Below are positions 5,989 to 14,259 of a stretch of DNA of 64,000 bases, in pieces (position 1 is the first letter of the stretch; each line of letters starts with the position of its first letter). The stretch is from the NCBI RefSeq assembly GCF_003568845.1, contig NZ_CP030126.1, positions 2,507,001 to 2,571,000 on the forward strand, in the 5' to 3' direction. The notes under the pieces are model-generated. The model had not been told where the DNA came from. It made no database searches and saw only the letters and a program-made list of their open reading frames with translations. The translations under genes and the position numbers were made by a program. Source of the stretch: Indioceanicola profundi (GTDB taxonomy: Bacteria; Pseudomonadota; Alphaproteobacteria; Azospirillales; Azospirillaceae).

Positions 5989-6270
5989 TCAGGCCGCCAG
6001 ACCTGCCCCGTGCCCTGCATTGGCATGGCTACGGCGGTAGCGCACGGCCATCGTGCCCTGGTCGGCCCTGGCCAGATTGCGCTCATACCGGGCCAGCAGC
6101 CGCGTGAAGGTGGTCACGCGGATGGGCTGGCTGTCGCGCATCCGCCGCCAGGTGCTCTCGCTGATGCCGTAGGTCTCGCGGAGCCCGGCTTTGGTCACGG
6201 ATGTGAGGTGCCGTCTGAATTCCAGGAACTGCGCACGGGTGACCGACATCATGATGCCTGCCATGCTCAT
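5989..6270 (-). CDS. Small basic HTH-like protein of unknown family
   Basis: A 93-residue basic protein with AGGGAG about seven bases before the ATG. Residues about 22-55 (VTKAGLRETYGISESTW then RRMRDSQPIRVTTFTRLL) have the spacing of a helix-turn-helix followed by a supporting helix, as in small phage-type or Cro-like regulators. There is no signal peptide and the tail is rich in Arg, His and Ala. It lies 73 bases downstream of the cytochrome c gene on the same strand, with a strong hairpin between, so it may be a weakly expressed last gene of the amine-oxidation cluster. DNA binding is inferred from pattern only. Confidence 0.6.
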   Translation of the reverse strand: MSMAGIMMSVTRAQFLEFRRHLTSVTKAGLRETYGISESTWRRMRDSQPIRVTTFTRLLARYERNLARADQGTMAVRYRRSHANAGHGAGLAA

Positions 6271-6343: not shown

Positions 6344-6757
6344 TCACTCGGCGGGACGGGTCGATGTCACGTCCTCAGGCGTCACCGGATCGGTGTAGCC
6401 GTTGCCGAAATGGGTGCGGATGAAGTTCACCACCGCGGCGACCTGGGCATCGGACAGCCCTTCGAAGGATGGCATCGCCTTGCGGCCGTTCACGACCATG
6501 TAGATGGGATAATCCCCGGCCTCCAGGTTCGGGTTCGACGCCAGGGACGGGTAAATCCCGGCCCCTTCCGCCCCTTTCCCGTCGGGCATGTGGCAGCCCT
6601 GGCAGATGGCCCGGTACAGCGCCTCCCCATCCTGGTAGGAGAAGCGGTCTGCCGTTGCGAAGGCGTTGGACTGGGCATCCGTGGACTGCGCCATGGCCGG
6701 CAGGCAGGACAGGCAGAGCGCCGCGGCGGCCGCGGCAAGGGTCAGGCGGGATCGCAT
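6344..6757 (-). CDS. Periplasmic c-type cytochrome
   Basis: A 137-residue protein with a Sec signal (MRSRLTLAAAAAALCLSCLPAMAQ) and one haem-binding motif CQGCH at about residue 52. A likely axial methionine lies in GRKAMPSFEGL, followed by the typical C-terminal helix VAAVVNFIRTHFG. This is a class I monohaem cytochrome of the alcohol/amine dehydrogenase-partner type. GGAGGA stands eight bases before the ATG at 6757; an earlier ATG at 6773-6775 overlaps the stop of the amine oxidase but would add a non-signal-like extension. The tight link to the Tat-exported flavin oxidase suggests it takes electrons from that enzyme in the periplasm. Confidence 0.9.
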   Translation of the reverse strand: MRSRLTLAAAAAALCLSCLPAMAQSTDAQSNAFATADRFSYQDGEALYRAICQGCHMPDGKGAEGAGIYPSLASNPNLEAGDYPIYMVVNGRKAMPSFEGLSDAQVAAVVNFIRTHFGNGYTDPVTPEDVTSTRPAE

Positions 6758-6771
6758 CTTTGAATCCTCCG

Positions 6772-8427
6772 TCATGGCCGCGACGCCGAGCTGTGGGTCG
6801 TGGATGTGACGCGCTGGTGCAGGCGGGTGATGGCGTCGAGGGAGGAGGTCACCGCCCCCTCCTGCCAGGCCGGGATGTAGGAGGCATGTTCGCCCGCCAG
6901 CAGGATGCGGCCATCGATCTGGCATAAATCCTTGTAATGTGCGGCTCGGGTCTCCTCCGTCCAGGCGCCGAAGCAGCCCAGCGTCCAGGGCACGCGATGC
7001 CAGGCGACGGCCACGCCGGTGTCGAACTCGGTCTTGTACTGCGGGTGGATCTGGGCGCCGAACTCCACGGCCCGCTTCACCCTCTCCTCCGGCGCCATGG
7101 CGGCGAACTCGTAGGCGAAGGGACCCCAGGGATAGGCCCCCAGCACCACGGCCTTGCCCTTGGAGCCGTAGCCGGTGTTCGGATAGGCGATCAGGGAAAT
7201 CGGCAGGTCCGTGTAGCTGATACCGCCATAGATCGCCTCGTCCTGCTCCCAGAAGCGGCGGTTGAACTGAAGCCCGACCTTCAGGGCGGCATGGTACGGC
7301 ACGGCGGATATCGCGTCGGCCATGGGCTGGCTGACATCCATGGGAATCTGGCTGAGCACCGAGAGCGGGATGGTGCAGAGGCACCATTGGGCCGAGGCGG
7401 TCTGCATCGCGCCGCCATGGCCGTCATCGAAGCTGACCGTGACGCCGGAGCCGTTCTGCCGGATTTCGCGGACACGCGCATTGTAGCGGATCTTGTCCTT
7501 CAGCCGCTCCGCGAACGCCCTGGGCAGCATGTCCATGCCGCCGACGGGCTGGAACAGGCTGGTCTGGAACTCATAGCCCGCACCGGTGCCGATATGCCGC
7601 CACAGGCCGGACTGCAGCAGTTCGGAGAAGCCGATGGGTTCGGACGGCACCGGCTCCCCGCTGAGCCCGCCGCCGGGGTCCTTGGCGAAGCCGCGGCGCA
7701 TGCTGGACGTTTCGCCGGCCCGGTACTTCATGTCCTTGTCCAGAGCGCCCCACTGGCGCAGCGCCTCCAGAAGCTTCTCCTGATCCTCCTGCCCCACCAG
7801 CTCGTCCATGCCGGGCTTGTGCGCCAGCTTGCCGAGCAGTTCCGAGACATGGCCGTGGAAGTCGGCCTGGACCTCGCGGTAGCGCACCGGCTTCCCGCCG
7901 AAGGCGTTCTTGGAATGGACATAGGCGTTGTAGTTGACCTGGAAGAAAGGCTCCAGCGTCACGCCCAACTCGTGGCAGTAGTGCATCATGGCGTGGTGGT
8001 GGTAGGGCACCCGCCACGGGCCGGGATTGATGTAGTTTCCCGCTTCGAACCCGACATTCTGGGTGAAGCCGCCCAGCTCGGTATAGGTGTCGCCGCCCCG
8101 CAGGGTCCAGGCGCGACCGCCAGCCCGGTCCCGGTATTCCAGAACCTGAACGTCGTAACCGGCCTTGCCCAGCTCATAGGCGGCGACCAGACCCGCAAGG
8201 CCCGCGCCCAGGATCAGCACGGAGGCGCCCTTCGGCGCGCCGTCCAGCCGGGGCACATGCGTGAATTCGGACTTCGCGGCGAAGCCGAGGCTGCTGGCCG
8301 CCTGATACATGACGGTGCTGCCGGCCGACATGCCGATCATGGCCAGCAGACGACGCCGCGTCATCGGCTGACGGTCTGCCGCCTGACGGCCCGGCGCGCC
8401 GGAGCGCATCGAAGAAAATGGTCCCAT
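6772..8427 (-). CDS. Tat-exported flavin amine oxidase / amine dehydrogenase
   Basis: A 551-residue flavoprotein. A twin-arginine signal lies at about residues 22-50 (TRRRLLAMIG, then a hydrophobic stretch ending near LGFA). The FAD site follows: GAGLAG at about 74-79, the ribose-binding Glu in VLEYRDRAGG and the GGRAWT doublet; the C-terminus has the FAD-binding AGEHASYIPAWQEGA segment. This is the monoamine/L-amino-acid oxidase superfamily. Such enzymes turn an amine into an imine; members beside a cytochrome c gene (for example nicotine oxidoreductase) pass electrons to the cytochrome rather than oxygen. The start at 8427 is chosen because GAGG lies five bases upstream; ATG at 8364 would also keep the twin arginines. 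The ATG at 6773-6775 overlaps its stop, showing tight coupling to the cytochrome. Confidence 0.88.
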   Translation of the reverse strand: MGPFSSMRSGAPGRQAADRQPMTRRRLLAMIGMSAGSTVMYQAASSLGFAAKSEFTHVPRLDGAPKGASVLILGAGLAGLVAAYELGKAGYDVQVLEYRDRAGGRAWTLRGGDTYTELGGFTQNVGFEAGNYINPGPWRVPYHHHAMMHYCHELGVTLEPFFQVNYNAYVHSKNAFGGKPVRYREVQADFHGHVSELLGKLAHKPGMDELVGQEDQEKLLEALRQWGALDKDMKYRAGETSSMRRGFAKDPGGGLSGEPVPSEPIGFSELLQSGLWRHIGTGAGYEFQTSLFQPVGGMDMLPRAFAERLKDKIRYNARVREIRQNGSGVTVSFDDGHGGAMQTASAQWCLCTIPLSVLSQIPMDVSQPMADAISAVPYHAALKVGLQFNRRFWEQDEAIYGGISYTDLPISLIAYPNTGYGSKGKAVVLGAYPWGPFAYEFAAMAPEERVKRAVEFGAQIHPQYKTEFDTGVAVAWHRVPWTLGCFGAWTEETRAAHYKDLCQIDGRILLAGEHASYIPAWQEGAVTSSLDAITRLHQRVTSTTHSSASRP

Positions 8428-8546
8428 TCTCGCCTCGAAAGTGGCGGCCGGCGCCCGCATCGCCATCGCGGCAGCGCCGACCGGAGAGCATTCAAAGGGG
8501 GAGCAGGACGGGGACCCTTCCCGGCCTGCTCCGCAGGTCGTCAGGG

Positions 8547-10997
<2,451 letters not shown>

Positions 10998-11202
10998 TAT
11001 TGGCTCCCTGTTCATTCGAGAAGAGTTGTCGCTCTTCCTGGGAGGCCGTTCCGTCCCTGCTCCTTGTTCTTCTCAGGATCGCGGCGCCGTATTTCTTGCG
11101 CTTAGCGCCGCCGGGACCGCCCTTTGGGTTCTGATCCCGACCTGTTCATTTCATCGCGTCCTGCGGGCCGTACCCGCGACCTGATGCAGGACCGATGTAG
11201 GC

Positions 11203-11229
11203 GGCGGACGGTGGCGCGCACCGTCCGCC
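11203..11229 (-). terminator. Hairpin after the secreted RidA gene
   Basis: GGCGGACGGT pairs perfectly with ACCGTCCGCC across a seven-base loop, 22 bases past the ridA-like stop on the minus strand. No T-run follows, so it may only partly end transcription before the TonB receptor gene, or mark a processed 3' end. Confidence 0.45.
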
Positions 11230-11251
11230 CTGCGCGGCTGGGTCGCCGCGG

Positions 11252-11743
11252 TCACTTGGCCTTTGCGGCCACGACCTCGATTTCGACCAGCATGCCCGGC
11301 CCGGCCAGGCTCGCCACCTGCACGGTGGAGCGGGCCGGCTTGTTCGGCTGTTCCGGCGTGCCGAAGAACTTGGTGTAGCCGGCCATCATGCCGCCGAAGT
11401 CCATCATCCCTTCCTTGGCGGGATCGCCCACCAGGAAGACCGTCATCTGGATGACGTCGCCCATGGAAAGGTCATGGGCGGCCAGGGTCTCCTGGATGCG
11501 GGTCAGGACGTTGACGGTCTGCGTCTCGGTGTTCCCGTAGACCTGGGTGCTGCCCTTCGGCGCCTCCTTGTCGATGACGGGAGGCACGGTTCCGCTGAGG
11601 AAGATGAGATCCGATCCGGCTGGAACGATCACGGCGGAAGCAATCGGGAAATTCGGAACGTCCGTCCGCTTGATCCCCTCTGCCTGGGCGCTCCCGGCCA
11701 GCATGGCCAATCCAAACCCGATAATGGCACCGATCCGCTTCAC
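11252..11743 (-). CDS. Secreted RidA/YjgF-family imine deaminase
   Basis: A 163-residue protein with a Sec signal (KRIGAIIGFGLAMLAGSAQA) on a full RidA/YER057c/UK114 domain. The RidA C-terminal signature is kept: ARSTVQVASL with the substrate-binding arginine, and VEIEVVA with the conserved glutamate. RidA trimers hydrolyse reactive imines and enamines such as 2-aminoacrylate; most are cytosolic, so an exported form is notable. The start is GTG with GGGGA seven bases upstream. It is the first gene of a minus-strand series with a TonB receptor, a Tat-exported amine oxidase and a cytochrome c. The imine product of that oxidase is the natural candidate substrate. Confidence 0.9.
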   Translation of the reverse strand: MKRIGAIIGFGLAMLAGSAQAEGIKRTDVPNFPIASAVIVPAGSDLIFLSGTVPPVIDKEAPKGSTQVYGNTETQTVNVLTRIQETLAAHDLSMGDVIQMTVFLVGDPAKEGMMDFGGMMAGYTKFFGTPEQPNKPARSTVQVASLAGPGMLVEIEVVAAKAK

Positions 11744-12234
11744 TCTACGTTCCCCTTTTTATTGTGGCGTGGTTCCCGGCATGCGCCGGGCCGTGAATGG
11801 TGATCCGTGTTTTCCTTGGAAGGATTGCCTGCCTGTTCCGACCTCTGCTCCGATCGTCCGTTCTAGAGTACGTCGCTGGACCTTCTGCCATCCGGCAGGC
11901 GGGATCACCATGGCCCGAATACATGTTCAGCAAAGCGCGTGCCAACCGGCCGTGTTCGCAAAAGCGAGATAATCCTTAGCTATCGCAGCACCATGCCCGA
12001 CGAAAAATCGGGCATGCAGCCGCCGAATGAAGCAGTTGCCTAGTCAAAGGGCATGCATCTGCATACGCCGGTCCCCTGCATGCGGCAGAGGCAGTCCGGA
12101 TGCATAGGCCGTTTGCAAGGGCAGTAATCTTCCGCGGCCTGCCTTACAAATCAGGGTCTCGGTCGAGCGGCCTATCCCGCCTTGCGCCAGCCCCGCTGGC
12201 CCGGACCGGCACCTTCCGACACGATGACCAGCCG
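11744..12234. other. Intergenic region between the divergent RidA-like and HWE kinase genes
   Basis: This stretch of 491 bases holds no gene I can support. It should carry the promoters of both divergent genes. Visible structures are a hairpin CCCGGC-ATGC-GCCGGG at 11775-11790 in the ridA-like leader and a dyad at 11992-12016 (CATGCCCGA, loop CGAAAAA, complement). Around 12050-12110 several GCATGC/TGCAT words cluster. No clear -35/-10 pair was found. Confidence 0.5.
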
Positions 12235-14259
12235 ATGACAAGAAGTTCAGACGCCCTCCCCGCCCCCGATTTCCTGGCGCATGATGGCGAGGCGGCGGCG
12301 CTCCTGCGGGCGCATGACTGGCGGTCATCGCCGCTCGGCCCGCCCGACGCCTGGCCGGAACCGCTGAAAACGCTGGTCGGCGTCATGCTCGGGTCAAACC
12401 AGCCAATGTTCGTGGCCTGGGGGCCGGAGCGCATCATGATCTATAATGATGTGTATGCGCCCCTATGCGGCGCGCGGCACCCCGAGGCCCTGGGCCGCCC
12501 CTTCGCCGAGGTCTGGCACGACGTCCAGGAGGAGATGGCGCCCATCATGGACCGGGCCTTCACGGGCACGCCCGTGAACATGACCGACATCCATCTGGTG
12601 ACCACCCGGCACGGCCGGCCGGAGGAGGCGCACTTCGCCTTCTCATATACTCCGGTGCGCACCGGGCGCGGGGTGGACGGGGTGTTCTGCATCTGCACGG
12701 AGACGACGGAGCAGGTTCTTGCCGACCGGCAGCGGGCCTTCGTGCTGGCGCTGGAGGATTATCTGCGGAACGAAATCTCCGCGGAAAACATGAAGATCAT
12801 GACGGCGGAGCTGCTGGGCCGGCAAGTGGGTGCTGCCCGCGCCGGCTATGGCGAGATCGACGAAGCCGGAACGACGGTCATCGTCAACCGCGACTGGACC
12901 TCCGGAATGGGAAGCCTTGCCGGCAAGGTCCGGCTCCTCGACGCCTTCGGGCCGCAGGTGATCGCGGAACTGCGCGCCGGGCGCACCCTGGTGGTTGAGG
13001 ATTGCCGCACCGATCCCCGCGCCGGCAGCGCCCATGCGGCGGCATGGGACAGCATCGGAACCCGCGCGCTGATCGTCGTGCCCCTGGTCAGGGACGGACG
13101 CCTGCGGGCGATCCTGTATCTGCATGAGGCCGTCCCCCGCCGCTGGACGGACCTCGACGCCGCGCTGGCCGAGGCGGCGGCCGAGCGAACCTGGTCGGCG
13201 GTGGAGCGGGCAAGGGCAGAGGCGGCGTTGCGCGAAAGCGAGGCGCGCTTCCGCAATCTCGCGGACCATACGCCGGTGATGATCTGGGTAACCGACGCGA
13301 ACGCCCGGTGCATCTATGTCAACAGGCCCTGGTACGATTTCACCGGCATGGACGAGGCGGGCTCACTGGGGTTCGGCTGGATTAACGCGATCCACCCAGA
13401 CGAGCGCGCCGAGGCTGAGCGGATGGTGATGGAAGCCAAGACCGCACAGGCGCCCTTCCGGATCGAATACAGGCTCCGTCGCGCCGATGGCGCCTATCGC
13501 TGGGTGATCAATGCCGCCTCCCCCCGTTTCGGACCGGATGGCGCTTTCCTCGGCTATGTCGGCTCGGTGATCGACATCGATGAACGCCGGGAGGCTGAGG
13601 CGCGGCAGACCCTGCTGGCCCGCGAGGTGGACCACCGGGCGAAGAATGCGCTGGCCGTGGTGCAGGCCGTGGTCCGCCTGACCCGTGCCGAGAATCCGGC
13701 GGATTTCCTGGAAGCGGTGGAGAAGCGCGTGGCGGCGCTCGCCCGCGCCCACAGCCTGCTGGCGGAGGGGCAGTGGAGCGGTGCGCGGCTGGAGGTGCTG
13801 GCCGCGGCGGAGCTGGCGCCCTATGCGGGCAAGGACCGGTCGCGGGTGCGCCTGTCCGGGCCGCCTGCGGTGCTTGCGGCCGACGCCGTGCAGCCGACCG
13901 CCATGGTGCTGCACGAGCTGAGCACCAATGCCGCCAAGTACGGGGCGCTGTCCGCTCCCGGCGGCGGCATCGACCTGTCCTGGAGGATCGAGCCGGACGG
14001 CAGCCTGCGGCTGGACTGGCATGAGGTGGGCGGTCCCGCCGTTCCCGGCACGCCGGTGCGGCGCGGCTTCGGCTCGCAGATGGTCAGGGCGGCGGCCACC
14101 CAGCTCGGCGGCGCCGCCGCGTTCGAGTGGGATGTGAATGGCCTGCGCTGCAGCCTTACCATCTCCTCCGCCCATCTGGCCGCCACGGATACCGTGAACG
14201 GCCCCCGGACGGAGGATGGCCGGAACGTCGGCCATGCGACCGCAACGACCGCGTCGTAA
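12235..14259 (+). CDS. HWE-family sensor histidine kinase (PAS-GAF-PAS-HWE)
   Basis: A 674-residue soluble kinase without membrane segments. Order: a PAS-like sensor (about 20-150, with AHDWRSSPLGPP and FVAWGPERIMIYND), a GAF domain (about 160-320), a PAS/PAC domain (about 335-455), then the HWE dimerisation domain with EVDHRAKNALAVVQ and the HATPase part with ELSTNAAKYGALS. HWE kinases are common in alphaproteobacteria and often work in light or general stress signalling. The ATG at 12235 starts a sensible PAS domain but has no strong ribosome-binding site. Its first 150 residues closely match the N-terminus of the hybrid kinase at 45658-48552, suggesting both sense a similar signal. No response regulator is adjacent. 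Confidence 0.92.
   Translation: MTRSSDALPAPDFLAHDGEAAALLRAHDWRSSPLGPPDAWPEPLKTLVGVMLGSNQPMFVAWGPERIMIYNDVYAPLCGARHPEALGRPFAEVWHDVQEEMAPIMDRAFTGTPVNMTDIHLVTTRHGRPEEAHFAFSYTPVRTGRGVDGVFCICTETTEQVLADRQRAFVLALEDYLRNEISAENMKIMTAELLGRQVGAARAGYGEIDEAGTTVIVNRDWTSGMGSLAGKVRLLDAFGPQVIAELRAGRTLVVEDCRTDPRAGSAHAAAWDSIGTRALIVVPLVRDGRLRAILYLHEAVPRRWTDLDAALAEAAAERTWSAVERARAEAALRESEARFRNLADHTPVMIWVTDANARCIYVNRPWYDFTGMDEAGSLGFGWINAIHPDERAEAERMVMEAKTAQAPFRIEYRLRRADGAYRWVINAASPRFGPDGAFLGYVGSVIDIDERREAEARQTLLAREVDHRAKNALAVVQAVVRLTRAENPADFLEAVEKRVAALARAHSLLAEGQWSGARLEVLAAAELAPYAGKDRSRVRLSGPPAVLAADAVQPTAMVLHELSTNAAKYGALSAPGGGIDLSWRIEPDGSLRLDWHEVGGPAVPGTPVRRGFGSQMVRAAATQLGGAAAFEWDVNGLRCSLTISSAHLAATDTVNGPRTEDGRNVGHATATTAS

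Follow-up and report, generated by a model that had tools for sequence, protein, structure and literature searches.

The 64,000-nucleotide stretch of Indioceanicola profundi DNA that was analysed (hereafter the window) carries on its (-) strand four genes in the order rid3 (11743-11252), a gene for a TonB-dependent outer-membrane receptor (11015-8547; Pfam Plug and TonB_dep_Rec), lao (8364-6772), and a cytochrome c gene (6757-6344). The first encodes a Rid3-subfamily imine deaminase precursor of 163 residues with a GTG start, as judged from the open reading frame, the PF01042 match, the nearest solved relatives (9bka and 9bkc), and the catalytic residues. The product of lao is a homologue of flavin L-amino-acid oxidases/dehydrogenases (PF01593, E 5.6e-58) that begins with MTRRRLLAMIGMSAGSTVMYQAASSLGFAA, a Tat signal, and whose best solved match is the L-amino acid oxidase 2jae (E 1.3e-89). 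In 2jae, the substrate carboxylate is bound by Arg84 and Tyr371. The positions that we equate with them through the alignment, Arg118 and Tyr411 of the window protein, are conserved across 60 of 60 homologues, consistent with an amino acid as the substrate. Several other proteins of the amine-oxidase family are encoded in the same genome, and the one at 6772..8364 is the one sitting with rid3. Directly after lao comes the gene of a mono-haem cytochrome c (CQGCH; PF13442 and PF00034), which has a Sec-type signal and is the probable electron acceptor. The three gene types of the lao-cccA-ridA operon are all found on the (-) strand within 6344-11743, with the TonB receptor gene in between. A Tat signal on the flavoprotein (MTRRRLLAMIGM...), together with the exported CQGCH protein encoded directly downstream, makes a dehydrogenase likelier than an O2-using oxidase by published criteria (PMC12224317), and the window enzyme is probably a cytochrome-c-linked dehydrogenase.

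Two further frames flank these genes. Just 3' of the cytochrome gene, a small frame (5990-6270, (-); MSMAGIMMSVTRAQFLEFRRHLTSVTKAG...) looks like the helix-turn-helix type. Upstream of rid3, a divergent gene (12100-14259, (+); LAREVDHRAKNALAVVQ...) encodes what looks by eye like an HWE-type sensor histidine kinase containing PAS/GAF domains, and is possibly unrelated to the cluster.

The first 21 residues of Rid3 (11681..11743, (-)) form a predicted Sec signal of the signal peptidase I type, with the predicted cut between AQA and EG. The N-terminus read from the translation, MKRIGAIIGFGLAMLAGSAQA followed by EG, has the positive, hydrophobic, and AxA parts of such a signal, and the AlphaFold2 model has its low confidence mainly there (pLDDT 53-56 for residues 1-20). 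A Shine-Dalgarno-like AAGGGGA lies about 7 bases 5' of the GTG, and the frame, 168 residues open in total, is closed about 5 codons upstream of this start. The further in-frame starts (TTG12, ATG14, and GTG38) are located within either the hydrophobic core or the conserved domain, and no downstream start that removes the signal keeps this domain intact. The sequence-only reading had proposed a Sec signal on a RidA protein and had named a start beyond the signal region as one observation that would overturn it: the signal is there and has been kept in diverged homologues, and the placement of the Shine-Dalgarno and GTG and the positions of the later starts make such a start unlikely.

A Rid3 protein by sequence and fold

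The PF01042 match spans residues 45-160 (E 1.2e-19; 70.9 bits vs a cut-off of 27.3) and, with the RidA fold (Foldseek E 2e-18 to 9bka), places the protein in the Rid superfamily. It falls outside the archetypal RidA subfamily, scoring 53.2 bits with TIGR00004 against a curated cut-off of 106.25. Its closest solved relatives are PSPTO_3006 (9bka, E 2.6e-45) and PFL_1385 (9bkc, E 5e-42), to which it is 48-52% identical, and the next entry follows at 7e-9. The AlphaFold2 model, made from 27 relatives, has a mean pLDDT of 90, and a Foldseek search with it returned 9bka first (TM-score 0.96, 52% identity) and 9bkc next. The reference Rids lie outside the Rid3 group in a quick tree whose base is poorly resolved. 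The window protein belongs to Rid3, clustering with PSPTO_3006 and PFL_1385 by sequence and fold.

Three residues, Arg138, Glu154, and Glu156, are invariant in the alignment of 74 out of 74 subfamily members (compare Arg105 and Glu120 of RidA). The key Arg and Glu of an active RidA that the sequence-only reading had recognised are therefore intact (Arg138 and Glu156). Archetypal RidA (YjgF/UK114) shares the fold and these active-site residues, but it is cytoplasmic, is about 30% identical, and has a GPY motif whose Tyr is replaced by Ile34 in the window protein (P33-I34 for P-Y), as it is in PSPTO_3006 and PFL_1385. These two proteins have been assigned to Rid3, and both deaminate iminoarginine and the imines made by L-amino acid oxidase in vitro (PMC5619798). 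From these assayed relatives, we infer that the window Rid3 is an imine deaminase. It is not the sole active-arginine Rid of its genome, since a second PF01042 protein with an ARS motif is encoded at G000:C1:520506-520907.

Export signals and gene neighbours among relatives

The comparison covered 95 related loci, taken from family relatives, a genome scan, and an even draw of about 400 Pseudomonadota genomes. Signals were called by a home-made script based on hydrophobicity and cleavage site (not by SignalP), which demands that a charged start be accompanied by a hydrophobic run free of charges and by a cleavage motif or lipobox. It scores an export signal in 86 of the 95 Rid3 loci, 14 of them of the lipoprotein type. 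Most of its misses are fragments or lie near the threshold, where a signal can still be read by eye (L081, L198), and three loci scored without a signal (L101-L103) have a signal-like sequence further upstream. The real signal-less exceptions are L187 and L188, which come from one genus, the one closest to the PSPTO_3006 sequence. Among about 30 other PF01042 proteins inspected in the relatives and in this genome, none has a clear signal of this kind.

Rid3 homologues at only 45-75% identity keep an export signal made of unrelated letters, and conservation of such a signal despite diverging letters extends over Alpha- and Gammaproteobacteria; the signal is not a product of chance. Where the window protein has a signal peptidase I signal, its Niveispirillum relatives (73-80% identity) have a lipobox signal, LTAC followed by NKEE or LTGC followed by AKEE. 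Two routes at one position would be hard to explain unless export itself matters. These Niveispirillum proteins (L033:7420-7914, L035:8612-9106, and L058:9941-10435) suggest that tethered and free forms of Rid3 occur within one bacterial family. In a gammaproteobacterial subgroup (L099:9899-10399 and L101-L103), signal and Rid domain are separated by an additional stretch, EIQLRGTLAGPLVVTS.... The prediction that the window Rid3 is exported through Sec is well supported by its sequence and by this conservation, and the location outside the cytosol assigned to it by the sequence-only reading stands on the same ground.

The link with lao is strong. A same-strand homologue of the Tat-type LAO lies within 6.5 kb of rid3 in 82 of the 95 loci, and the distance is often no more than a few hundred bases; the even Pseudomonadota draw has it in 24 of 25 loci, the remaining one (L191) being a fragment. 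A CXXCH protein with a signal is encoded near rid3 in 69/95 loci (17/25 in the even draw). Azospirillaceae (at least 12 loci) retain the order rid3, TonB receptor, lao, cytochrome c, and Caulobacter and most Gammaproteobacteria have the order lao, cytochrome c, rid3. Judged from the gene content of these loci, the Rid3-LAO arrangement is widespread in Proteobacteria. When the PF01042 genes and the LAO genes among the matches listed for the relatives' genomes were compared, no LAO was found near a PF01042 gene other than rid3. Seven loci (L042, L048, L072, L087, L092, L095, and L104) have no detected LAO near Rid3, for which contig ends are no plain explanation.

Two of these seven encode an exported Rid3 adjoining molybdenum-hydroxylase-like genes (L042:9221-9718 and L048:8547-9044, (-)). 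The neighbours in L042 resemble a Tat [2Fe-2S] subunit and a large molybdenum-hydroxylase (xanthine dehydrogenase-like) subunit, which suggests another periplasmic source of imines. Conversely, LAO paralogues with 56-69% identity to the window LAO are found with an adjacent cytochrome c and no Rid gene (L210:8044-9756, L211:8540-10285, and L212:8628-10445); in these genomes Rid3 is located elsewhere, with a more distant LAO.

The signal-less proteins are informative about the pair. The Rid3 of L187 and L188 and the PSPTO_3006 chain begin directly with (M)SDSIQRTS. The oxidase of L187 and L188 keeps TRRE, but the stretch that follows, SSIAAVGGEKAVKDALAVLG or SSIAAVGGEQAAKDALAALG, is broken by charged residues, four in the first and three in the second; no other scored homologue has more than two in its Tat region. 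No cytochrome was found near these two loci. L189, a relative of the same genus, has both the Rid signal and an intact Tat region. In the tree, a quick one with unsure deep forks, the three signal-less proteins form a single clade (99) that arises from within the signal-bearing ones. The simplest reading is that both enzymes of this Pseudomonas lineage moved to the cytoplasm together. Since the Rid signal, an intact Tat region, and the cytochrome are missing together, Rid3 and the oxidase appear to be found in one compartment, although a single event allows no statistical test.

Proposed deamination in the periplasm and its alternatives

We propose, with a probability of roughly 0.8, that the exported Rid3 deaminates imines in the periplasm in partnership with the Tat-exported L-amino-acid oxidoreductase encoded nearby. 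The oxidoreductase would oxidise an amino acid by hydride transfer to its FAD and release the imino acid, as its family and residues suggest. The electrons would then reach the respiratory chain by way of the exported cytochrome c from the adjacent gene, as published relatives with the same Tat and cytochrome layout suggest. Mature Rid3 would hydrolyse the imine to a 2-oxo acid and ammonium, an activity published for two Rid3 proteins; this would speed up deamination and keep the imine from reacting with other molecules. From its position, one might guess that the TonB receptor brings in the substrate. Several points count against this scheme. Imino acids hydrolyse spontaneously in water, so the need for a periplasmic enzyme is unproven. 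There are also the seven Rid3 loci without LAO, and the three with LAO and cytochrome c and no Rid. The sequence-only reading had taken the neighbouring amine oxidase as the source of the imine: the tie to a Tat-exported oxidase holds in the even draw, but the match to 2jae and the conserved carboxylate residues do not fit a generic amine oxidase, and the enzyme is probably a dehydrogenase.

That the window Rid3 is cytoplasmic, because translation starts downstream or the hydrophobic stretch has no export function, is highly improbable. Rid proteins are normally cytoplasmic, and PSPTO_3006, L187, and L188 have no signal; yet the oxidase of the signal-less relatives has a damaged Tat region too, the signal persists across two proteobacterial classes in diverged letters, with a lipobox instead in Niveispirillum and others, and the placement of the Shine-Dalgarno and GTG, the frame closed just upstream, and later starts that destroy the conserved region all speak for a translated signal. 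An exported Rid3 could also be a non-catalytic or stabilising subunit of the oxidase complex, like Mbeta of Chlamydomonas, sent out for assembly and not for hydrolysis. The very tight linkage of rid3 and lao agrees with this, as does the periplasmic oxidase complex of Chlamydomonas, in which the catalytic LAAO subunit is accompanied by a RidA subunit described as non-catalytic (cited in PMC5053998). We consider it unlikely, since the three active-site residues, needless in a structural subunit, are invariant, and two close relatives are active as enzymes alone (PMC5619798).

The exported Rid3 might instead act mainly on other imines, from the oxidation of D-amino acids or N-heterocycles, the link with LAO reflecting a shared regulon and not a hand-over. 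Here one can invoke L042 and L048, which keep the exported protein beside Tat molybdenum-hydroxylase-like genes without LAO, and the action of Rid3 proteins on iminoarginine from D-arginine dehydrogenase (PMC5619798). A same-strand LAO in most loci, often a few hundred bases away, makes this quite doubtful. We lean towards a broader view in which the Rid3 and LAO families form a dedicated extracytoplasmic amino-acid deamination module across Proteobacteria, with the location of Rid selected to match that of the oxidase. Such selection is suggested by one Pseudomonas lineage, in which both export signals disappeared along with the cytochrome, which would be a switch to a cytoplasmic pair.

A whole widespread Rid lineage would thereby gain a location and a partner. 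PLP enzymes of the kind that RidA protects are not expected outside the cytoplasm, and with this lineage one can ask directly why imines should require enzymatic hydrolysis there. A ready-made comparison is available in the Pseudomonas lineage, from which both signals are gone. The predicted export is also a warning that the Rid3 proteins assayed so far were handled as if cytoplasmic.

Relation to known systems

The sequence-only reading saw here a new extension of RidA to the periplasm. This part is not supported. The window protein is a Rid3, Chlamydomonas is known to pair LAO1 with RidA in the periplasm (PMC10805672), and a paper of 2016 described the lao-cccA-ridA operon of Gluconacetobacter diazotrophicus PAL5, whose LAAO is probably periplasmic (PMC5053998). 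The clustering of Rid3 with FAD amine oxidases was noted in 2015 (PMC4433059). A signal on Rid itself is not stated in the available texts of these two bacterial papers; the words signal peptide or periplasm are absent from that of PMC4433059 (2015) and from PMC5619798 (2017), and the latter makes no mention of export. No open-licence paper was found that describes export as common to the Rid3-LAO lineage, which is weak evidence of absence. The gene set is thus already published, and the modest new point is the predicted shared export of this lineage.

PFL_1385 (9bkc) and PSPTO_3006 (9bka) share with the window protein the subfamily, the fold, and the active residues, and their imine deaminase activity was measured, with snake-venom oxidase and DauA and not with a native partner (PMC5619798); unlike the window Rid3, PSPTO_3006 has no signal. 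The predictive value of a Tat signal with an adjacent Sec cytochrome c for dehydrogenase rather than oxidase behaviour comes from superfamily kinetics of 2025 (PMC12224317), following NicA2 and Pnao (PMC9396064). NicA2, Pnao-CycN, and related dehydrogenases resemble the window system in the Tat-exported flavin amine oxidoreductase and the adjacent Sec-exported cytochrome c; they differ in having nicotine-type amines as substrates and no Rid partner mentioned (PMC9396064, PMC12224317), a word search for Rid in PMC12224317 having found none. Chlamydomonas LAO1 and LAO2/RidA likewise pair an extracytoplasmic L-amino acid oxidase with a RidA protein, but the system is eukaryotic, its oxidase makes hydrogen peroxide, and it has no cytochrome partner (PMC10805672).

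The closest parallel is that of G. diazotrophicus, as described in the available text of PMC5053998. Tn5 insertions in lao lowered the expression of the whole lao-cccA-ridA cluster and abolished the production of indole-3-acetic acid from tryptophan, and the conservation of the cluster in Caulobacter and Xanthomonas was noted. The RT-PCR primer for its ridA (GDI2454) had no match in 397 genomes of one family, probably the wrong one. Unlike the window, this cluster has no reported TonB receptor between the genes, a signal is stated for the oxidase only, and the substrate is tryptophan, on the route to indole-3-acetic acid. The two systems have in common the three gene types, with an LAAO predicted to be exported by Tat and thought to be periplasmic, a cytochrome c, and a RidA protein proposed as the helper of the oxidase.
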